Source: Paenibacillaceae bacterium (GTDB lineage Bacteria; Bacillota; Bacilli; Paenibacillales; CANHGK01). Taken from it: a stretch of DNA of 64,000 bases. Below, piece by piece: positions 31,376-47,949 of the stretch. The stretch is taken from assembly GCA_947460235.1 (NCBI GenBank), contig CANHGK010000001.1, positions 1 to 64,000 on the forward strand, in the 5' to 3' direction. Every line of letters begins with the position of its first letter. The stretch's first letter is position 1. Under the pieces are notes generated by a model. That model was given only the letters and a program-made list of their open reading frames with translations, was not told the DNA's origin and did not search any database. Position numbers and translations under genes: made by a program.

Positions 31376-34300
31376 TTATTTCTTCACTACATAAAACTCT
31401 TTGCCCTGACGATTTTCCGCATCATGGGTTACCGATGCTTCTTGAATATCTTTGAATGCGACATGTGTTGTTTTTACATCTGACCAGAATTGCTTTTCAA
31501 ATCCATTCACTGGTCCGCGTTTAAACAGTCTGTTTAAGATGATGACTGCTTCTACGCGTTCAACTGATTCATTAGATTTCACAGTTGTCAATTTTCCGTT
31601 ATCCACTAACCAATTAATTCCGATGCTGTTTAACACGCTTGCATTCACTTTCACTAATCCAAGTTGCGCCAAACGGCCGATTACTTGAGTCATTTCAGTT
31701 CGCGTGATCGCATGGTTTGGATAGAAATTATTGTCTGCATACCCTGACATCAGTTTGTTTTCACTTGCCACTTCAACGGACTTGAAAAACCAGTTTCTTG
31801 TTTTTATGTCTTTATACGACGGCGTTTCTGGAATCGTTCCAGTCGAATTCGTTAGACGAACAAGCGCTGCCGCGATCTCTGCACGAGTCGCTCCTTGGTC
31901 TGGTTTGAATTGACCATCTGCATAACCACTCATGTATTTATAGTGCGTCGGTAAAGCTACGATATCATTATCTACTGTGATGACATATTCAACTAAGTCT
32001 GATTCCACAAAGCCATCGGTCGCGACAATACTAAAGTGATCTGTTCCCACAAATTTAGCAACTGCTTTGTACGTAAAACTACCATCTGTTCCGTTCACCG
32101 TTACTACACCGTGATTCGCATTGATTTTTAGCATATACGTAAGCGCATTGCCATCTGAATCCGTTGCGCTCGTTTTGCCACTAATTGCATTACTCGTCTT
32201 CGTCTTCAACTTCAAGTCACTTGCTTTGATCGTGAACACTGGTGCACGATTGCTCTGTTGAATTGTAACTTGAACCGTATATTGTGCAGTCGCATTTCCA
32301 TCTGTTACTTGAACAACGATTGAATCGTCTCCCGCAACATCGCCAGCTTGGTAAGTCAATTCACCACTCGCCGAATTGATGGTTGCTTTGCCTGTTTTTG
32401 GTTCGCTAGCGATTGAATACGTTAATTTATCTCCGTCTAGATCCGATGACGTTAATTTCTCGGAGCCCGTTTGACCAGTCAATACATGAATCGACGAACC
32501 GTTCAACACTGGCGCATCATTCACTGCTTTGATCGTGATGGTTACAACCAATGGATCTGACGTTAATTCACCATCGGACACAGCAATCGTGAACGTATCT
32601 GTTCCAACGAAATTCGTATTCGGTGTATAGGAATACGCGCCCGTTTTTGCATCCAACGTAACTTTTCCATATTTCGGTTGTGTAACAAGAACATACTTTA
32701 ATTCATCATTTTCCGTATCGTCCCCAATTACCCGATTTTTGAGAACCGTATCCTCATCCATCGTTCCTGTCGTATCACCAGATATCGTTGGTTGGTCATT
32801 CTGAGCTCGAACATTCACTTGTACTTGTACAGGGATCGTTGAATAAAGTGCTCCATCGTATGCAATGACGGTAAATGCATTAAGATTTGCATATGCATTC
32901 ATTGCTGGTCTCCACAATAAACTTTCACCACTCGATAACAACGTGCTGCCTGCAGTAATTGGAACCCCATCTTTTGTTAATCTTCCAGTTGTCACATCTT
33001 CAACGCGGAATGAAAGGGTATCGCCATCTACATCTTCTTCATTTGCTAAACTTGCAAGTTTATCATACGTAATGAGATAACCTACATCTTCTGTTCCACC
33101 AGTAAGTTTTTCTACGGTCGTTAATGTCGGTGCATCGTTCACTGGATCAAGGTTTACGCTCACTGAAACAGCTAATGTAGACAATAACGCGCCATCATGG
33201 GCCTTGATTGTAAATGCATTCAGTGTGCCATTTGCATTGATCTCAGGTGTCCAATACAAATTGGATCCACTTGATAGAATGGTACTTCCTGCGGTAACTG
33301 GAATTGCATTTGCCGAAGTCGTTCCCACTTTAAGCGTTCCACTGCTTACCGCGTCTATCTGGAAGTTGACGGTGTCTCCATCAATATCTGCTTCATCTGA
33401 TGCATTCGCTAAATCTGCATAACTGATCGCATATTCAACTTCTTCTGTACCACCTGTAAAAGTTGTTACAGTTGTAATCGTTGGCGCATCGTTTACGGCT
33501 CCAACGGTTACTTTTATTTGTACCGGTGTTGCAGATGTTAACGATCCATCATGCGCCTTGATCGTGAGTGCATTCAGTGTTCCATTTGCATCTGTTGCCG
33601 GTGTCCAATACAAGTTAAAACCACTCGAAAGTATTGTATTTCCAGCAATAACTGGCGTTGCATTTGCAGACGTTGTTCCCACTTTAAGCGTTCCACTACT
33701 CACTCCGGCAATTTGGAAATTAACTGTATCGCCGTCAATATCTGCTTCATCTGATGCATTTGCTAAATCTGCATAACTGATCGTATATTCCGTATCTTCT
33801 GTACCACCGGTTAACGTTGTTACCGTTGTCAATGTTGGTGCATCATTTACTGCGCCAACGGACACCTTCACTTGCACTGGTGATGTTGACAATAATGCGC
33901 CATCATGCGCTTTGATCGTAAATGCATTTAGCGTACCATTTGCATTCGTTACTGGTGTCCAGTACAAGTTGGATCCACTTGATAGAATGGTATTTCCAGC
34001 AGTTACTGGCGTTGCATTCGCGGATGTTGTTCCTACTTTAAGCGTTCCACTGCTCACAGCTTCAACCCGAAAGTTAATCGTATCGCCGTCCACATCTGCT
34101 TCATTCGATGCCGATGCCAAGTTAGCATAACTGATCGTATACTCCGTATCTTCTGTTCCACCAGTTAACGTGTTTACCGTTGTCAATGTTGGTGCATCAT
34201 TCACTGGACCTAAATTCACCTTGACTTGTGCACTCGACACGGAATTTAAAGCACCATCATGCGCTTTAATCGTGAACGCATTGACTGTACCATTTGCGTC

Positions 34301-36592
34301 AGTTACTGGTGTCCAGTAGAAGTTGGAACCGCTTGTTAATAATGTGCTTCCCGCGGTAACAGGCGTTGCATTCGCAGAAGTCGTTCCTACTTTAAGCGTT
34401 CCACTGCTCACTGCGTCAATTCGGAAGTTAATCGGATCACCGTCAATATCTGATTCGTCTGCTGCTGATACCAAATCTGAATAACTGATCGCGTATTCAA
34501 CTTCTTCTGTACCACCGTTAAATGTATTTACCGTTGAAATCGTTGGTGCGTCATTGACTGCACTCGTTGTTACTTTTACTTGAACGGGTGACGCTGACAA
34601 TAACGATCCATCATGCGCCTTGATCGTGAATGCATTCAGTGTTCCATTTGCGTTCGTTGCTGATGTCCAGAATAGTTTGGAACCGCTGGTCAAAATAGAA
34701 CTTCCTGCAGTAACTGCTGTTGCATTCGCAGAAGTCGTTCCCATTTTAAGTGTTCCTGTGCTAACTGCTTCGATCCGGAAGTTCACGGTATCCCCGTCCA
34801 CATCCGCTTCATCTGCAGCAGCAACCAAATCAGCATAACTGATTGTATATTCCGTATCCTCTGTTGCCCCGGTAAACGTCGTTACCGATGTCAATGTAGG
34901 CGCGTCATTTACTGGAGTTACTGTCGCATTAAACGACTTCGAATCTGTCCCACCATTTCCATCATCCGCTTTAACCGTGAATGTAATCGGTGTACTCGTC
35001 GAATAATTATTCGCCGGCGTTAACGTAAGTTTATTACCTACGATTTGTGCACTTACTGTTTGTGCACTTCCACCACTTGTGACCGAATAGGTGATCGGAT
35101 CCCCGTTCGCATCCGTGGAACTTAACGTCACATCTTTCGGCGTATCTTCGGTCAAAACTTGATCAGACGGTTTGCTGAAAATCGGCCCTTTGTTCGCGCG
35201 AGTCACCGTAATCGTATACGGTTTAATCGTACCGTCTTCCGCCGTCACTTCAACCGTAATCGTCGTTGTTCCCACTTTGATCGGAATCGAACCGCTTGCC
35301 GTTCCGCTAAGCACCGTTGTCCCGTTCACGGTCAGCGTCGCTTTGGCGTTGTTCGTGGTCGGCGTCACTGTCATCGAAGATACTGCATCGCCGACCGTTT
35401 TCGTGTACGAAGTAATCGTTGGATCAAACGTAGGTGATATTGGATCTTGTGATGTCGTGAGACTCAATAACGTTGCATCGGGAGATAAATTCGGCACATA
35501 AACCGTTGCAATTTGACCCGTTTGAGCCATACCAATGACGATATTCCCTTGCGGATCTAACGTAATTGCATTTGCGTAATTGGTAGGAACATTTGGATCT
35601 ACATCTTGGCACCCTGCGTTTGCGTTCGGTCCGAAGAGCGTCTTTACATAACCATCCTTCGTGATTTTACGGACGTTTTTACTTCTTTCAGTGACATATA
35701 GTTCATCATTCGTTTGATCATAATATAACGAACGTGGAATATCTAATTGAGCATTCGTACCTTGACCGTCTAGATCGCCCTGTGTACCGCTTCCGGCAAA
35801 CGTACTAACCGAACCGTCGGAAATCTTTACTTTAAGGATTCGATGATGTACACCATCAGCAATATATAAATTGCCCGCAGCATCAATTTCCATTTGCCCA
35901 GAGAACTCAGTAGAATTTGCTTCAACTAAGTTGGGGACACTGATTTCCCGCAATTTTGCACCTTGGGAATTGAATTCAAGGACGATATTTGCGTTCGTAC
36001 CACCGACCAATAAATACACATAACCGGTATCACGATCAACCGATAGCCCAGAACTGAAGTAATTCGTTGGCGCACCGGAAGGAATAACAGATTGTTGATT
36101 GGCTGGCACTGATTGCAACGATACGTTAGGATGCACCCAAAAATTAGTAATTGTTCCGTTTGAAGCCCTTTTAAGAATTCGATATCGTTGGTTATCTGCG
36201 AGATAGAGATTGTTATTATTGTCATAATCCATGTCCACAAGATTGTTAAAGGTAACTGCAGCATTGGTGACAGGGTCTTTGTCTGTAACCGTTCCTACGT
36301 TCCAACTCGAATCGATCGTTCGTAGATGAGAATAAGAATAATGTCCCGAATACAGCGTGCCATTCTTGTCATATAGAAGGGACAAGAATGGACCTTTCAT
36401 CTGTGCATTTGTTCCTTGTTCATCCCATTCCCCATAAGCAGATTTTTTCCCTGCAACAACTTGAAAACTACAATTCGTAGCAGCCGCCTCTGCTTTGTTT
36501 CCTAGGAGTGCCAAATTCCCAAGTGATAGTGAACCAAATGCCAACAACACGGACAACAACATCGATAGTACTTTTTGACTGACCAAACGCAT
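31376..36592 (-). CDS. Giant SLH-anchored surface protein: NHL propeller, cadherin-like repeats, SLH
   Basis: 1,738 residues from ATG 36592 (GGAGAGGGT 7 nt upstream); the frame open to 36709 has no site. A signal peptide (~1-37, ending KAEAAA) is followed by an NHL-type six-bladed propeller (~40-375: NLVDMDYDNNNNLYLADNQR; QMEIDAAGNLYIADGVHHRI; LDPQGNIVIGMAQTGQI). A cadherin-like beta-sandwich (~380-475; SYTKTVGDAVSSMTVTPTT) and an Ig/cadherin-type domain (~475-565) come next. Then six VNDAPT-headed repeats, five of exactly 118 residues and a sixth of 113, then three more bacterial Ig/cadherin domains. Three SLH-like repeats end it (MSGYADGQFKPDQGATRAEI; MSGYADNNFYPNHAITRTEM). DGD motifs in each repeat suggest Ca binding. 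It should be exported and bound to the wall polymer as a stalked adhesin or matrix protein. Confidence 0.85.
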   Translation of the reverse strand: MRLVSQKVLSMLLSVLLAFGSLSLGNLALLGNKAEAAATNCSFQVVAGKKSAYGEWDEQGTNAQMKGPFLSLLYDKNGTLYSGHYSYSHLRTIDSSWNVGTVTDKDPVTNAAVTFNNLVDMDYDNNNNLYLADNQRYRILKRASNGTITNFWVHPNVSLQSVPANQQSVIPSGAPTNYFSSGLSVDRDTGYVYLLVGGTNANIVLEFNSQGAKLREISVPNLVEANSTEFSGQMEIDAAGNLYIADGVHHRILKVKISDGSVSTFAGSGTQGDLDGQGTNAQLDIPRSLYYDQTNDELYVTERSKNVRKITKDGYVKTLFGPNANAGCQDVDPNVPTNYANAITLDPQGNIVIGMAQTGQIATVYVPNLSPDATLLSLTTSQDPISPTFDPTITSYTKTVGDAVSSMTVTPTTNNAKATLTVNGTTVLSGTASGSIPIKVGTTTITVEVTAEDGTIKPYTITVTRANKGPIFSKPSDQVLTEDTPKDVTLSSTDANGDPITYSVTSGGSAQTVSAQIVGNKLTLTPANNYSTSTPITFTVKADDGNGGTDSKSFNATVTPVNDAPTLTSVTTFTGATEDTEYTISYADLVAAADEADVDGDTVNFRIEAVSTGTLKMGTTSANATAVTAGSSILTSGSKLFWTSATNANGTLNAFTIKAHDGSLLSASPVQVKVTTSAVNDAPTISTVNTFNGGTEEVEYAISYSDLVSAADESDIDGDPINFRIDAVSSGTLKVGTTSANATPVTAGSTLLTSGSNFYWTPVTDANGTVNAFTIKAHDGALNSVSSAQVKVNLGPVNDAPTLTTVNTLTGGTEDTEYTISYANLASASNEADVDGDTINFRVEAVSSGTLKVGTTSANATPVTAGNTILSSGSNLYWTPVTNANGTLNAFTIKAHDGALLSTSPVQVKVSVGAVNDAPTLTTVTTLTGGTEDTEYTISYADLANASDEADIDGDTVNFQIAGVSSGTLKVGTTSANATPVIAGNTILSSGFNLYWTPATDANGTLNALTIKAHDGSLTSATPVQIKVTVGAVNDAPTITTVTTFTGGTEEVEYAISYADLANASDEADIDGDTVNFQIDAVSSGTLKVGTTSANAIPVTAGSTILSSGSNLYWTPEINANGTLNAFTIKAHDGALLSTLAVSVSVNLDPVNDAPTLTTVEKLTGGTEDVGYLITYDKLASLANEEDVDGDTLSFRVEDVTTGRLTKDGVPITAGSTLLSSGESLLWRPAMNAYANLNAFTVIAYDGALYSTIPVQVQVNVRAQNDQPTISGDTTGTMDEDTVLKNRVIGDDTENDELKYVLVTQPKYGKVTLDAKTGAYSYTPNTNFVGTDTFTIAVSDGELTSDPLVVTITIKAVNDAPVLNGSSIHVLTGQTGSEKLTSSDLDGDKLTYSIASEPKTGKATINSASGELTYQAGDVAGDDSIVVQVTDGNATAQYTVQVTIQQSNRAPVFTIKASDLKLKTKTSNAISGKTSATDSDGNALTYMLKINANHGVVTVNGTDGSFTYKAVAKFVGTDHFSIVATDGFVESDLVEYVITVDNDIVALPTHYKYMSGYADGQFKPDQGATRAEIAAALVRLTNSTGTIPETPSYKDIKTRNWFFKSVEVASENKLMSGYADNNFYPNHAITRTEMTQVIGRLAQLGLVKVNASVLNSIGINWLVDNGKLTTVKSNESVERVEAVIILNRLFKRGPVNGFEKQFWSDVKTTHVAFKDIQEASVTHDAENRQGKEFYVVKK
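33140..34912 (-). repeat. 354-bp tandem repeats within the SLH surface protein gene
   Basis: The conserved VNDAPT codons recur near 34900, 34546, 34192, 33838, 33484 and 33130, an exact 354-bp (118-codon) period over five units. A degenerate sixth unit of ~113 codons follows to about 32800. Identity is high, for example GTLKVGTTSANA in four consecutive units. Confidence 0.85.
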
Positions 36593-36730
36593 GAAAACAC
36601 CCTCTCCATTTTTGTGTGCCAAATCAAGCATAGTTTCTTCCGAAATTACTATATCAAACGCATCTGACGAGCTTGTTTTGTAATTCTGACCAGAATCTGA
36701 TCTACACATCTTTTTTGAGATATAAAAAAA

Positions 36731-42137: not shown

Positions 42138-42725
42138 CTATTTTTTCAACACCTTTATGATCTCCTCGGCAATGCGATCACAAGGTAGCACTTTCATCGC
42201 AGCACCCAATTGGATCGCTTCCCTCGGCATCCCAAACACGGCGGTAGTCGATTCATCTTCTGCAATCGTGAATCCACCCTGCTGACGAATTTTCAATAAC
42301 GCCGCCGCGCCATCTTTCCCCATGCCAGATAAAATCGCTCCAACAATTCGCTCTCCGCCGTATCGTTCGATAATCGATTCGAAGGAACCGTTAATATTCA
42401 AAATCCCTTGCGCATCGCCTTCGCTTCGCACTAATTTTACGCTTCCTGTTTTGCGAAACTGCAAAAAACAACCGCCCGGCAAAACATAACAGTTCCCGCT
42501 TTGAATTTGTTCTCCATCATGGATTTCGTGAATTGGTAGTTTAGCAGTTTGTTTTAACCGATGAATATAGGAAGCAGTCATCCACTCGGGCATATGTTGG
42601 ATGACGAAAATTACCGATTGAAATGGATGATCAAACATCGGTATAATCCGGGAAATTGAATCAAAGCCCCCCGTTGATGCCCCTAACACGACCAATTTAT
42701 GAAATTGACTTGAATCAACGGACAT
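42138..42725 (-). CDS. Stand-alone CheB-type methylesterase domain protein (1)
   Basis: 195 residues from ATG 42725 (AGGTGAT 5 nt upstream; a GTG at 42734 is in frame but unlikely). It is only the CheB catalytic domain with no receiver: nucleophile Ser in VVLGASTGG, His in VIQHMPEWMTA and Asp in LSGMGKDGAAALL, plus GGFTIAEDESTTAVFGMPRE. CheB hydrolyses glutamyl methyl esters (and deamidates Gln) on chemoreceptors. Lacking a receiver, it would be constitutively active or controlled by partners. A paralogue lies 94 nt upstream. No cheR, cheA or cheW gene is in the window, but two chemoreceptor genes lie ~10 kb away. Confidence 0.85.
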   Translation of the reverse strand: MSVDSSQFHKLVVLGASTGGFDSISRIIPMFDHPFQSVIFVIQHMPEWMTASYIHRLKQTAKLPIHEIHDGEQIQSGNCYVLPGGCFLQFRKTGSVKLVRSEGDAQGILNINGSFESIIERYGGERIVGAILSGMGKDGAAALLKIRQQGGFTIAEDESTTAVFGMPREAIQLGAAMKVLPCDRIAEEIIKVLKK

Positions 42726-42819
42726 AGCAATCACCTACATTTTCAAAATACTTAGTAGAGAAACCAAGTAAATATATCGAATTTCTACGTAATTGACTAT
42801 GACATATGTCACAATCATT

Positions 42820-43524
42820 TTATGATTTGGTATTTATTTCACGCACAATCGATTCCGCGATTCGATGACAAGGTAAAACGGATAGTGCCGCACCTAACAC
42901 AATGGCCTCGCGTGGCATCCCAAATACAACAGCTGTCGATTGATCTTCTGCAATCGTAAACCCGCCATTCCTTCGGATGTTAAGTAATCCTTCCGCACCG
43001 TCTTTTCCCATTCCGGTCAAGAGAGCTCCTATGATTCGTTTCCCACCAAATCGCTGAACGAGCGCCTCCATCGAGCCGTTAATATTCAGAACGCCCGCAA
43101 CCTCGCCAGTTCCTCCGATTAAACGACTCTTACCATTACCATGATTAAACTGCAAAACATATCCACCAGGAACTACGTAGATGCGTCCATTCTTAAATGA
43201 TTGTCCATTCACGACCTCTGTAACCGGCAGAGTCGTTTTCGATTGCACCCGCTCGACGTACGAAGCAGTCATCCACATTGGCATATGTTGAATGATAACA
43301 ATGGCTGCCTGAATGGATTGGGGGATAAACGGAACTATTTTTAGCACCGCATCAATTCCGCCTGTTGATGTGCCAATCACGACGAGTTTATCCAATCCTG
43401 TTTCATCATAGAAACCGACCTGCGACGTTCGCTTTGCTAAATCCTGTTCTCTCCGAGTAACTTGTTCTTGTTGCATTGTTGCATGTACATAATTTTGTAT
43501 TTGACGAAAATTCATATTACTCAT
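42820..43524 (-). CDS. Stand-alone CheB-type methylesterase domain protein (2)
   Basis: 234 residues from ATG 43524 (weak site GGTGA). A ~40-residue helical N-terminal extension rich in Gln and Arg (MNFRQIQNYVHATMQQEQVT) precedes the catalytic domain: Ser in VVIGTSTGG, His in IIQHMPMWMTA and Asp in LTGMGKDGAEGLL. It is clearly paralogous to the downstream protein along its whole catalytic domain. No receiver domain; the extension might provide localisation or regulation. The two genes stand in tandem, 94 nt apart, probably after a local duplication. Confidence 0.85.
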   Translation of the reverse strand: MSNMNFRQIQNYVHATMQQEQVTRREQDLAKRTSQVGFYDETGLDKLVVIGTSTGGIDAVLKIVPFIPQSIQAAIVIIQHMPMWMTASYVERVQSKTTLPVTEVVNGQSFKNGRIYVVPGGYVLQFNHGNGKSRLIGGTGEVAGVLNINGSMEALVQRFGGKRIIGALLTGMGKDGAEGLLNIRRNGGFTIAEDQSTAVVFGMPREAIVLGAALSVLPCHRIAESIVREINTKS

Positions 43525-43556: not shown

Positions 43557-44189
43557 TCATGCACGCTTTTTCACCGCCACCTGAATTACATGCGATAACC
43601 CTTGATGCAATTCGCCTTCAGAACGCATCACTTCACCTGTGAATAGATGTGCCCAATGCCAGGTTTCAGCAGGAAATGCTCCCGTAAAATCGCTCAGTTG
43701 AAACAACCAATCCAACTCTTTTGGTCCACCGGTTCCGTACGCCAACTGTTGTTTGGAATACACTTCAAAAATGACCCATCCGCCTTGTTTTACCGCATCT
43801 GCCGCCGCGTCAAGCGTCGCGATTCTCAGCGCTTCCTCAAAACTCCAGAAAACGCAAACGATCGCATCCCAAACTTCTTTTTGCCAAGGCGCATTTCGCA
43901 AATCAACCTGCAACGTCGCGTCAAGCGTAACTCCTTTTTCAGCGGCCAATTCCTGTTGCTTCGTTATTGCAGCTTCTGCATAGTCCCATGTTGTTACCCG
44001 GTGTCCTCGTTCTGCCAAAAATACGGCATTGCGGCCCTCCCCTTCAGCAATACATAACACTGAACTTTCGCGAACTAATCTAGGCTCACTTGACTGAACA
44101 AACTCATTTGCTTCTTTGCCGTATCGATATCCAGGCATCTTAAACCGTTCTTCCCAAAACGGTTGCCATGAATCATTAGAATTTACCAT
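43557..44189 (-). CDS. Class I SAM-dependent methyltransferase
   Basis: 210 residues from ATG 44189, with GGAGG 8 nt upstream; the 5-residue longer frame starts within that site. SAM-binding motif I is VLCIAEGEGRNAVFLAERGH, with the acidic ribose-binding residue after RVTTWDYAE; a later strand is WDAIVCVFWSFE. It resembles TehB-like thiopurine/tellurite-type methyltransferases, which act on small molecules, rather than CheR. The substrate is unknown. It lies 32 nt upstream of the CheB-like pair on the same strand and is divergent from the vWA operon. Confidence 0.8.
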   Translation of the reverse strand: MVNSNDSWQPFWEERFKMPGYRYGKEANEFVQSSEPRLVRESSVLCIAEGEGRNAVFLAERGHRVTTWDYAEAAITKQQELAAEKGVTLDATLQVDLRNAPWQKEVWDAIVCVFWSFEEALRIATLDAAADAVKQGGWVIFEVYSKQQLAYGTGGPKELDWLFQLSDFTGAFPAETWHWAHLFTGEVMRSEGELHQGLSHVIQVAVKKRA

Positions 44190-44285: not shown

Positions 44286-44960
44286 ATGAGTACTTTTGAT
44301 CAAATCCCCTTTGAAGTAGAATTTGCAGATAATCCAGAACCACGTTGCCCTTGTGTATTGCTGGTGGATACGTCTGGTTCGATGGCTGGCGATCCCATTC
44401 GAGAATTAAATACCGGTTTGCGCGTGCTACGCGAATCGCTTTCTGTCGATGAAATGGCGCTAAAACGCGTTGAATTATCATTAGTTACTTTTGGTCCAAT
44501 CAAAGTACGTACGAATTTTCAGCCCGTCGATCAATGGGAACCTCCAACATTGGAAGCAATCGGTGATACCCCAATTGGCGGGGCGGTAGAACGCGCGCTC
44601 GAAATTCTCGAGCAACGCAAAACGATGTACCGCGAAAACGGCATTGCCTATTATCGCCCGTGGGTGTTTATGATTACAGACGGTTCACCAACGGATGTAT
44701 GGGAAAAAGCTGCCGAACGGATTCAAGCTGCGGAAGCAGCAAAGCAGATGGTGTTTTTTTGCGTCGGTGTAGAAGGCGCTGATTTTGAAGTCCTCAAAAA
44801 ACTCGGCACACGCGAACCATTGAAACTACGCGGTCTTCAATTCCGTGAAATGTTTCAATGGTTGTCAAATTCCTTATGTGCGGTATCTCAATCTCAAATG
44901 GGCGAGGCGGTTCCGTTAACGAATCCGACCGCTCCGAACGGATGGGGCGTGATCGCTTGA
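44286..44960 (+). CDS. TerY-like von Willebrand factor A domain protein
   Basis: 224 residues from ATG 44286 with GGGAGG 5 nt upstream; the longer frame (44238) runs through the likely promoter. The vWA domain fills the protein. The metal-ion-dependent adhesion site is complete: DTSGS (VLLVDTSGSMAG), Thr in IGDTPIGGAV and Asp in MITDGSPTD. It matches TerY/YegL proteins, the vWA component of tellurite-resistance-linked systems. The next two genes encode a PP2C phosphatase and a protein kinase in overlapping frames, which together form the TerY-P triad described for Ter-related stress signalling. It probably presents metal-bound clients to that kinase/phosphatase pair; that role is inferred. 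Confidence 0.85.
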   Translation: MSTFDQIPFEVEFADNPEPRCPCVLLVDTSGSMAGDPIRELNTGLRVLRESLSVDEMALKRVELSLVTFGPIKVRTNFQPVDQWEPPTLEAIGDTPIGGAVERALEILEQRKTMYRENGIAYYRPWVFMITDGSPTDVWEKAAERIQAAEAAKQMVFFCVGVEGADFEVLKKLGTREPLKLRGLQFREMFQWLSNSLCAVSQSQMGEAVPLTNPTAPNGWGVIA

Positions 44961-45802
44961 GTGATGCTCGCTTAGATCTCGAAACATCTTTTACACATGC
45001 AATTACTTCCGAGCGTTGGATCAGCCTAGGCGCATCCGCAATTGGTACCTCTCATCTAACGAAAGGGATTCCGAATGACGATTCATTTGCCATCCAGACG
45101 ATCCCTCGGGAAGACGGGAGTGAATGGTTAGTCATGGTTGTCTGCGATGGTGCCGGTAGCGCCAAGTTTGGCGGCATCGGTGCAAAAAGCACTGCGATCA
45201 ACACCATCGAATTAATACAAAATCACACAACAACAATTTCGTCACCTAACGAATTACAAGCAACGATAAAAGAAATCGTCAAACGATTAAAAAACCAATT
45301 AGTGAACGAAGCAACATCGCAATCCGCGAAAATTCGTGACTTTGCTTGTACATGGGTTTTGGCAGTTTGGTCGATGGATGAGTTATTCATTGCACAAATC
45401 GGCGATGGCGCATGCGTCTTTCATGCGGCGGACGAATGGAACGTTGGCATATGGCCGATGCAAGGAGAATATGCGAACACAACACGGTTTATAACGGATG
45501 AACACGCAGAACAAATTGTAGAAACGTGTACGCATCTAACAGCGGTTGATGCAATTGTTCTATTTAGTGATGGTTTACAACGTTTGGCCTTGAGATGGCA
45601 AGAACGTGACGCCATGCAAGGATTTTTCAATCCGCTTTATCGCTCATTATCAGCATTAAACCCTCCAATACATTCAGAAACGACTCATTCCGATGCGGCG
45701 CTTTCGTGGGCAAATCAACTCGCGGGTTGGTTGAATGGAACTCAAGTTAATTCGAGAACCGATGATGATAAAACGATGGTTTGGGGAGTGAAGCGAACAT
45801 GA
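44942..45802 (+). CDS. PP2C-type serine/threonine phosphatase
   Basis: 286 residues if ATG 44942 is used, overlapping the vWA gene by 19 nt; TTG 44957, which has GGGG 9 nt upstream and overlaps the vWA stop, is an alternative. PP2C metal-binding Asp motifs are all visible: GIPNDDSFAI, VVCDGAGSAKFGGIGA, FIAQIGDGACVF and VLFSDGLQRL, with a final Asp in TDDDKTMVWG. The enzyme should remove phosphate from Ser/Thr residues, most likely on targets or the catalytic domain of the kinase encoded next (ATGA overlap). Cytoplasmic; no membrane segment. Confidence 0.85.
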   Translation: MGRDRLSDARLDLETSFTHAITSERWISLGASAIGTSHLTKGIPNDDSFAIQTIPREDGSEWLVMVVCDGAGSAKFGGIGAKSTAINTIELIQNHTTTISSPNELQATIKEIVKRLKNQLVNEATSQSAKIRDFACTWVLAVWSMDELFIAQIGDGACVFHAADEWNVGIWPMQGEYANTTRFITDEHAEQIVETCTHLTAVDAIVLFSDGLQRLALRWQERDAMQGFFNPLYRSLSALNPPIHSETTHSDAALSWANQLAGWLNGTQVNSRTDDDKTMVWGVKRT

Positions 45803-47901
45803 TGACGGCAACGTTGTCCGGTATTGTTGATGAATTTCGAAAAAAAATTGTACTTGGCGATGTCATAGGACAAGGCGGCGAAGGGTCAATTCATGCCCTG
45901 CACGCATTTCCGCAGCGCGTTGTAAAACTGTATCATGAACCGATTAGCGAAGCTCATGCCAATAAACTACGCGCCATGGTTCAGCTACAAGATAAAACGC
46001 TCTTAAGCTGTGCAGCATGGCCGCTTGGGCTCGTTTTTGATGCCTCGAATCCCGAAGTCATCTGTGGATTTATGATGCCACGCGTTCGTGAAGCGAAATC
46101 GTTACATATATTATATGGTCCCAAAACGCGCCGTGAGCAATTTCCAAAAGCTACATTTGCCTTTCTAGTACATACCGCAATGAATGTCGCAAGATTATTC
46201 GCAGCAGCACATTCGGCAGGACATGTCATTGGAGACGTGAATCATGGAAACATGCTCGTTAGTCCACAAGGGACCGTTTGGGCGATTGACTGTGATAGTT
46301 TTCAAGTGAAAAATGGAGACAACGAATGGTACGGATGCGATGTCGGCGTAATGACGCATCAACCGCCCGAGTTACAACAAGTCCAAACGTTTCGCGGCGT
46401 GACTCGCACGCAAAATCACGACCGCTTTGGATTGGCCGTCATTATTTTTCAATTGTTAATGATGGGAAGACATCCGTTTGCCGGAAAAACGAGTGCCAAA
46501 AATGACATTTCGCTCGAACAATCCATCCAAACGTATCGTTATGTATACGGCGCAGATGCTGCCGTCAGGGGGTTAACCCCTCCGCCAACGAGCATTCCGA
46601 TCGATCGTTTACCATTTGCGATTCAACGCTTGTTCGACCGAGCATTCTCATCAATGGGATCAACTAATGAAGCCCGTCCGACAGCAAATGATTGGCTATC
46701 TGCACTTGAAGCATGTAAACGCCAGCTCAAAACTTGCCCTGAGACGAACACACATCAGTTTTTTAATCATCGCAACTCGTGTGTGTGGTGCGAATTAAAA
46801 GAACAACGCGGCATCGATTTTTTCCCTGATCCAGATCATGAGTCGGAACATAAGGACCCAGTAAAAGCGAACAATACCGTTGCGCTACCAAGCGCTACCC
46901 CATCGACAGTAAACACTTTACCGCCACTGAAACCAAAACCAACGCGAGCCGATGAACACGCATTATGGTTCAAAATTCAGTCGTTTGCCGCCCCGTCAGA
47001 CAAATGGCCGCTTCCCCGCTTATCGGAATGCCGCAATGGTCCCACGGAGCGAATTGGACGTTGGCGAAAACAATACCGCGGCATTCAAATCGGTAGTGCA
47101 GTTATTGGATTAGCTGGAGGTTTTGTCCCTGTTTATGCGTGGATTTCCAACTTACCGATGCTCGCTGCAACTTCCATCTGTTCTGTGCTTGGAAGTGCAA
47201 TCACGCTGGGCATCGGATCACTCACGGCAACGTGGTGGATGCGAAAAAAAATTCGGACTGAACGTGCGCTTGCTGAAATGAATTGGCATGAGATCAGGCG
47301 CTCAGCACGTGCTCAAGCATTGCTTCAACGCAAGTCCTACGAACAAGTCATCGATGCGCTCGCAGAAATCCGCACCGCCATTGTCGAATTACCAGAATAC
47401 CGGATGCACCGCATGAACGAATGGCTAGGACAATTGCCTGATCGACAATTGAAAACATTTTTATCGCAATATCGTCTCTCCGATGCCAAAATTAATGGGA
47501 TTGGCGACGGCCGAAAAATGACGCTTGAATCGTATGGCATCGAAACCGCTGGCGACCTTGAGCACACAAACCTAAAGAACGTTCCTGGTATCGGCGCTTC
47601 CGTCTTTCAATTACTGATGGATTGGCGTAGCGGAATTGCTGAACAATTTGTACCCGACCTAAGGGCCGGTTTGAGCAGACATGATCATATGCTACTGGAT
47701 CGCGAAGTTGCCGTTCGGCGCGATGGCTTGTTACGCAAACTCGAGAGCGGGGTACGTCAACTTGAAGAATTGCTTGAATTACAACTAGAATTACGTCAAA
47801 AAATCGAAGAAACCATCCGCGAAACAGGTCATGAATTGTCCGCGTGGATGCTCGATGAATTCGAAATGTTCCCGAAAAAGAATAAGAAAAAGAAAAAATA
47901 A
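45799..47901 (+). CDS. Protein kinase with Zn ribbon, membrane segments and helix-hairpin-helix (TerY-P triad kinase)
   Basis: 700 residues; ATG 45799 overlaps the phosphatase stop as ATGA. The kinase domain (~15-305) has a Gly-rich loop (VIGQGGEGSI), Lys in RVVKLY, a catalytic loop GDVNHGNMLV in place of HRDxxxxN, and a Mg loop IDCDSF in place of DFG, as in divergent bacterial kinases of this class. A short Zn-ribbon-like motif follows (Cys312, His and Cys329-x2-Cys332 region: CPETNTHQFFNHRNS, then CVWC). A linker and two hydrophobic segments (~430-480) come next. The end is a helix-hairpin-helix (~565-612: INGIGDGRKMTLESYGIETA, then VPGIGASVFQLLMDWR), a fold usually binding DNA, then a coiled coil and a poly-Lys tail. 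It should phosphorylate Ser/Thr on partners, opposed by the PP2C protein. Confidence 0.85.
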   Translation: MMTATLSGIVDEFRKKIVLGDVIGQGGEGSIHALHAFPQRVVKLYHEPISEAHANKLRAMVQLQDKTLLSCAAWPLGLVFDASNPEVICGFMMPRVREAKSLHILYGPKTRREQFPKATFAFLVHTAMNVARLFAAAHSAGHVIGDVNHGNMLVSPQGTVWAIDCDSFQVKNGDNEWYGCDVGVMTHQPPELQQVQTFRGVTRTQNHDRFGLAVIIFQLLMMGRHPFAGKTSAKNDISLEQSIQTYRYVYGADAAVRGLTPPPTSIPIDRLPFAIQRLFDRAFSSMGSTNEARPTANDWLSALEACKRQLKTCPETNTHQFFNHRNSCVWCELKEQRGIDFFPDPDHESEHKDPVKANNTVALPSATPSTVNTLPPLKPKPTRADEHALWFKIQSFAAPSDKWPLPRLSECRNGPTERIGRWRKQYRGIQIGSAVIGLAGGFVPVYAWISNLPMLAATSICSVLGSAITLGIGSLTATWWMRKKIRTERALAEMNWHEIRRSARAQALLQRKSYEQVIDALAEIRTAIVELPEYRMHRMNEWLGQLPDRQLKTFLSQYRLSDAKINGIGDGRKMTLESYGIETAGDLEHTNLKNVPGIGASVFQLLMDWRSGIAEQFVPDLRAGLSRHDHMLLDREVAVRRDGLLRKLESGVRQLEELLELQLELRQKIEETIRETGHELSAWMLDEFEMFPKKNKKKKK

Positions 47902-47902
47902 T

Positions 47903-47949
47903 AAAAACCTGTATATCCGAACGTACCATCGTTCGAACATACAGGTTTT
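47903..47949. terminator. Bidirectional terminator after the kinase gene
   Basis: AAAACCTGTAT pairs with ATACAGGTTTT with an inner CGAACG/CGTTCG stem (to 47949); it separates the triad from the convergent VanY-like gene. Confidence 0.85.

Follow-up and report, generated by a model that had tools for sequence, protein, structure and literature searches.

Three overlapping genes in a Paenibacillaceae genome, which encode a vWA protein, a PP2C phosphatase and a kinase, are on sequence comparison the orthologs, gene by gene, of the Escherichia coli genes yegL-pphC-yegI, and the triad belongs, as a new and divergent member, to the YegL-PphC-YegI branch already known among TerY-P triads. We consider it highly probable that the three genes form a chromosomal YegL-PphC-YegI operon that works as a membrane-anchored, reversible Ser/Thr phosphorylation switch. 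Protein identity, gene order and active sites are observed directly, while the activity of the switch is proposed by analogy with the E. coli proteins. The triad is a real, intact and ordinary member of a known, poorly understood signaling module.

Gene layout of the locus

The window, by which we mean the whole 64,000-nucleotide stretch that was analyzed, comprises positions 1 to 64,000 of the forward strand of contig CANHGK010000001.1 from a Paenibacillaceae bacterium (assembly GCA_947460235.1). The three genes occupy positions 44286-47901 of the plus strand in the order vWA, PP2C, kinase. The features of the locus and its upstream flank are as follows.

42138-43524, minus strand: two consecutive CheB methylesterase-domain genes, without a receiver-domain match (domain scan)
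43557-44186, minus strand: class I methyltransferase, divergent, beside the triad (Pfam TehB, 31.5 bits versus a cut-off of 20.4 bits)
44286-44960, plus strand: vWA (TerY/YegL-like) protein, 224 amino acids (Pfam VWA, 5.7e-8)
44942-45802, start uncertain, plus strand: PP2C phosphatase, PphC/YegK-like (Pfam PP2C_2, 2.3e-40)
45799-47901, plus strand: YegI-like kinase, 700 amino acids (similarity to YegI; kinase fold in the AlphaFold model)
47904-47949, called on the minus strand by the scan: terminator-like hairpin with a 20-bp stem (consensus scan and sequence)

The vWA gene starts with an ATG preceded by GGGAGG. The start of the PP2C gene is probably either the ATG at 44942 or the TTG at 44957, which overlaps the vWA stop codon; the longest mechanical open reading frame (ORF) begins at 44858, well within the vWA gene. 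The kinase start overlaps the PP2C stop via the sequence ATGA. The terminator-like stem lies between the triad and a convergent VanY gene and delimits the operon on its 3′ side. A promoter scan of the locus yielded matches at chance level.

Relation to E. coli yegL-pphC-yegI

Reciprocal blastp searches matched the vWA protein with E. coli YegL (54% identity over 217 amino acids, E = 6e-78), the PP2C protein with PphC (34% identity over 262 amino acids, E = 7e-39) and the kinase with YegI (31% identity over 648 amino acids, E = 4e-97). In a tblastn search of plasmid records, E. coli records annotated as "protein kinase YegI" matched the window kinase along 90% of its length. The locus of E. coli K-12 MG1655 is ordered yegL-pphC-(yegJ, antisense)-yegI and is followed by yegD, a member of the HSP70 family. 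Near-full-length homology of all three proteins, gene order and a kinase that combines a CHCC motif, a membrane region and a helix-hairpin-helix (HhH) together place the window triad with YegL-PphC-YegI. The earlier note on this DNA did not mention yegL-pphC-yegI, its closest characterized relative.

A paper from 2026, which cites Rajagopalan et al., reports E. coli YegI as an inner-membrane Ser/Thr kinase that autophosphorylates and PphC as the phosphatase that dephosphorylates it.

Active sites and architecture of the proteins

The metal-binding and catalytic residues of the triad are conserved in all three proteins. The vWA protein has an intact MIDAS (DTSGS...T...D), whose residues D28, S30, S32, T95 and D132 are each retained in at least 64 of 65 homologs, and the metal aspartates of the PP2C protein are invariant (70/70 homologs). 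Searching solved structures by sequence with each of the three proteins returned no match. The kinase protein is built of the following parts.

Residues about 1-305: atypical kinase domain (fold in the AlphaFold model, conserved catalytic residues)
Residues 313-331: CHCC zinc motif (ligands conserved)
Residues 431-449 and 454-472: membrane hairpin of two hydrophobic segments (hydropathy)
Downstream of the hairpin: coiled coil, then HhH (about 562-612), then C-terminal coiled coil (sequence and model)

The window kinase scores below the threshold of the Pfam kinase model; Pkinase is matched by 13 members of its 14-member alignment. With Foldseek, its AlphaFold model (mean pLDDT of 71) matched protein kinases of solved structure (E = 4.4e-8, probability 1.00, TM to target of about 0.67). 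The catalytic residues K43, D146 and D166 and the zinc ligands C313, H319, C328 and C331 are conserved in 66 of 66 homologs, and Asn148 is also kept. DNA-binding HhH domains have two G-x-G turns, as does the HhH sequence of the window kinase. The Pfam match to HhH is below threshold (E = 0.074), and the glycines of the G-x-G turns are retained in 53 to 65 of the 66 homologs. These results bear out the earlier description of the locus as three overlapping genes, in its coordinates as well as in its architecture: a vWA protein with a full metal site, a PP2C phosphatase, and a kinase fused to a Zn ribbon, two membrane segments and an HhH.

By hydropathy, a strongly hydrophobic segment follows the zinc motif and precedes the HhH in 67 of 69 homologous kinases. 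A second segment was scored in roughly half of the 69, and the window protein has both. Because the two segments are flanked on both sides by basic residues (GRWRKQYR and WWMRKKIR), we predict a hairpin whose two ends lie on the cytosolic side. The earlier note had called the membrane pair between the kinase and the HhH unusual; given its presence in nearly all homologs, the membrane segment is instead a family trait, consistent with the reported inner-membrane location of YegI. The conserved membrane segment and the HhH are features that any mechanism has to account for.

Conservation of the triad across genomes

When one genome was scanned for each species, 188 stretches proved to encode relatives, and the best 80 of them were kept. 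Together with two viral-collection contigs, two plasmid records and E. coli K-12, they make up a set of 85 loci. The best 80 of the 188 stretches come from Paenibacillaceae, Bacillaceae, Alpha- and Gammaproteobacteria, Burkholderiaceae, Planctomycetes, Acidobacteria, Chloroflexi and Methanoregula. All three genes are present in 82 of the 85 loci; their linkage, which the earlier note put up for checking, is conserved. Among the 83 loci that are not cut by a contig end, the vWA gene is found in every one (83/83) and a detectable PP2C gene accompanies the kinase in 82. Locus L082 lacks both partners and L063 lacks the vWA gene, each at a contig end, and L131 lacks only a detectable PP2C gene. 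Several kilobases of extra DNA lie between the vWA and PP2C genes in L128 and between the PP2C and kinase genes in L129. Because the vWA gene is always present and its metal site is kept, the vWA protein is probably an obligatory third component of the YegI/PphC system.

When all flanking ORFs of the 85 loci were clustered, no constant fourth partner emerged, and no other family of flanking ORFs occurred in more than 15 loci. Among the 85 loci, YegD and YegJ were present at the two E. coli loci only. Since the family has no constant fourth gene, the solitude of the window triad, which the earlier note had singled out, is not notable: triads of this family normally stand by themselves, with no ter genes. 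Both supposed oddities, the solitude and the membrane pair, are therefore the normal state of the family. In seven loci, mostly gammaproteobacterial and of the Competibacter type (L095, L103, L111, L115, L117, L119 and L133), the triad is closely followed by a gene for a TetR-like regulator, and membrane-fusion (MdtA-like) pump proteins are encoded within 10 kb of the triad in L118, L128, L131, L140 and E. coli.

Within the order, the kinase query matched 24 of 399 genomes, showing that the distribution of the family is patchy. Phage collections gave no more than two weak records, and viral collections no more than two contigs. One of the latter (IMG/VR contig UViG_2928826531, locus L142) agrees in length and match range with a genome contig of Azospirillum canadense (L075), and this "viral" record may therefore be bacterial or replicon DNA. 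With two weak phage records and two viral contigs, one of which repeats an Azospirillum contig, we rejected the idea of a phage-borne family.

Genomic surroundings and origin of the triad

Upstream of the triad lie genes for a carbonic anhydrase, the two CheB methylesterase-domain proteins and the class I methyltransferase, and downstream of it genes for VanY and M23 peptidases. No ter gene, nuclease or toxin was detected among the neighbors scanned. TerD has no match in the whole genome, and the two TerC-family genes of the genome are located on other contigs than the triad, in agreement with the earlier statement that no TerC/TerD, nuclease or toxin stands beside it. Elsewhere in the window (31376-36709, minus strand), a 1777-amino-acid protein shows, by eye, cadherin-like units repeated in tandem, and segments near its C terminus resemble S-layer homology repeats. 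On another contig of the genome (C7), a standard Pkinase protein is encoded next to a PP2C of its own, making the triad a second, separate Ser/Thr phosphorylation system.

The GC content of the triad is 47.3%, compared to about 42% around it, and all remaining 3.6-kb bins of the window fall within 39.8-45.5%. In the kinase tree, the branch of the window kinase is long and lies outside the Paenibacillaceae clade. The triad may have been acquired, as both the GC content and the tree placement fit acquisition and neither proves it. Vertical inheritance within the order was rejected on the position of the kinase outside the Paenibacillaceae clade, a placement made unsure by the long branch.

Proposed mechanism and alternative explanations

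By analogy with E. coli YegI and PphC, we suggest that the hairpin would hold the YegI-like kinase at the inner face of the membrane, with the kinase and zinc knuckle as well as the coiled coil and HhH in the cytosol. The kinase would autophosphorylate and would phosphorylate a substrate, and the PP2C protein would reverse the phosphorylation. Guessing from their folds, the vWA protein could be a Mg2+-dependent adaptor that joins kinase, phosphatase or substrate, and the HhH end could bind nucleic acid or a partner protein and carry the input signal. Counting against a phosphorylation switch are the long branch of the window kinase and its scores below the Pfam thresholds for both kinase and HhH. 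A more specific version, which we regard as improbable, is that YegI-type triads are membrane-tethered sensors of nucleic acid or of the envelope. Here, the hairpin would keep the HhH/coiled-coil end near the membrane, where it would bind incoming or membrane-proximal DNA (or RNA) and switch the kinase, with the vWA protein as a metal-gated adaptor. If true, this would define a kinase-based surveillance system that spans phyla and is distinct from the OB-fold TerY-P.

The class to which the triad belongs also invites a reading as phage defense. A TerY-P triad consists by definition of a TerY-like vWA protein, a PP2C phosphatase and a kinase that bears a C-terminal zinc ribbon; such triads occur alongside CoCoNuT restriction systems (PMC11090510). 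With its vWA, PP2C and Ser/Thr kinase fused to a zinc motif, the window triad falls within this broad definition. A kinase-OB TerY-P, the form described for the system tested by Gao et al. (2020), is reported to be active against T7-like phages. A stand-alone anti-phage TerY-P of this kind, in which phage would be sensed, the kinase would phosphorylate host targets and growth would stop, is in our view unlikely here, though it shares the three protein types with the window and would suit a patchy distribution (24/399 genomes) and a triad that may have been acquired (GC content of 47% against about 42% around it). The window kinase has a membrane hairpin and an HhH where the Gao system is described with an OB fold. 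Moreover, for the window triad as for E. coli YegL/PphC/YegI, similarity to PADLOC entries is weak and confined to the kinase level (PD-T4-6, 5e-7 for the window kinase, and PD-T4-6 for YegI too), the window vWA protein has no PADLOC match, and the scanned neighbors of the triad include no evident defense gene. We also compared 112 adjacent ORFs of the homolog loci with 112 distal ORFs several kilobases away using Pfam and PADLOC scans. The adjacent ORFs include three Mrr nucleases and at least one reverse transcriptase (retron-type), so that a few homolog neighbors do favor defense, and the distal ORFs include PD-T4-6-like kinases and a type I specificity subunit. There was no clear difference between the two sets, in a comparison of low power, as families rather than proteins were counted and the mechanical ORFs may include spurious ones. 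Because the PADLOC similarity is weak and the adjacent genes are not clearly richer in defense functions, the broad TerY-P assignment of the earlier note holds, but its specific link to phage defense or DNA processing is not supported. Membership in CoCoNuT type II or III-A was rejected, as the neighbor scan detected no CnuB/C GTPase-nuclease or CnuH/E genes beside the triad.

That the triad is a tellurite or metal-stress module of the Ter type, with the vWA protein as its TerY, is very improbable: the vWA protein belongs to the same superfamily and has a full MIDAS, but it is 54-60% identical to YegL-type proteins versus about 30-33% to TerY of ter operons on plasmids, and the genome has no TerD and carries its two TerC-family genes on other contigs. 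The divergent neighbor at 43557-44186 passes the cut-off for TehB (tellurite resistance); however, a generic methyltransferase model fits it better, and in two genomes that have a full triad and a close homolog of this methyltransferase (G049 and G458), the two are on different contigs. Ter/tellurite membership was accordingly rejected on the absence of TerD from the genome and the low identity to ter-operon TerY. It is also very improbable that the locus is a decayed or pseudo-signaling one with an inactive kinase. While the kinase is divergent and misses the Pfam kinase model, the three overlapping reading frames are all open, and none of the catalytic, metal and zinc residues that were checked has been lost.

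The YegL-PphC-YegI assignment ties a locus in a small Bacillota genome to an E. coli system on which experiments have started. The vWA-PP2C-kinase unit is seen to be conserved in groups as far apart as Proteobacteria, Bacillota, Planctomycetes and methanogens, and we propose that studies of YegI and PphC should take in the vWA protein.

Comparison with known systems

The TerY of the ter tellurite operon, like the window vWA protein, belongs to the vWA superfamily and has a MIDAS site; the two differ in sequence (about 30-33% identity), and the window has neither TerD nor a ter operon. With TerY-P triads in general (Anantharaman 2012; PMC11090510), the window shares the vWA protein, the PP2C protein and a zinc motif after the kinase domain. 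Compared with the CoCoNuT-associated TerY-P, it has a membrane hairpin and an HhH and stands without CoCoNuT, McrBC or another nuclease partner. The TerY-P of Gao et al. has the same three-protein composition; its kinase is described as an OB-fold fusion, and at that position the sequence and model of the window kinase show a coiled coil and an HhH. PADLOC-DB does not recognize the window triad, and its neighborhood is not a defense one. The closest likeness is to yegL-pphC(yegK)-yegI of E. coli K-12. Although the window triad is divergent from its E. coli counterparts (31-54% identity) and lacks the yegJ that lies antisense between pphC and yegI and the yegD that adjoins yegI in E. coli K-12, the two loci have nearly full-length matches in the same gene order, and E. 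coli YegI has the same kinase-zinc-membrane-HhH architecture as the window kinase.
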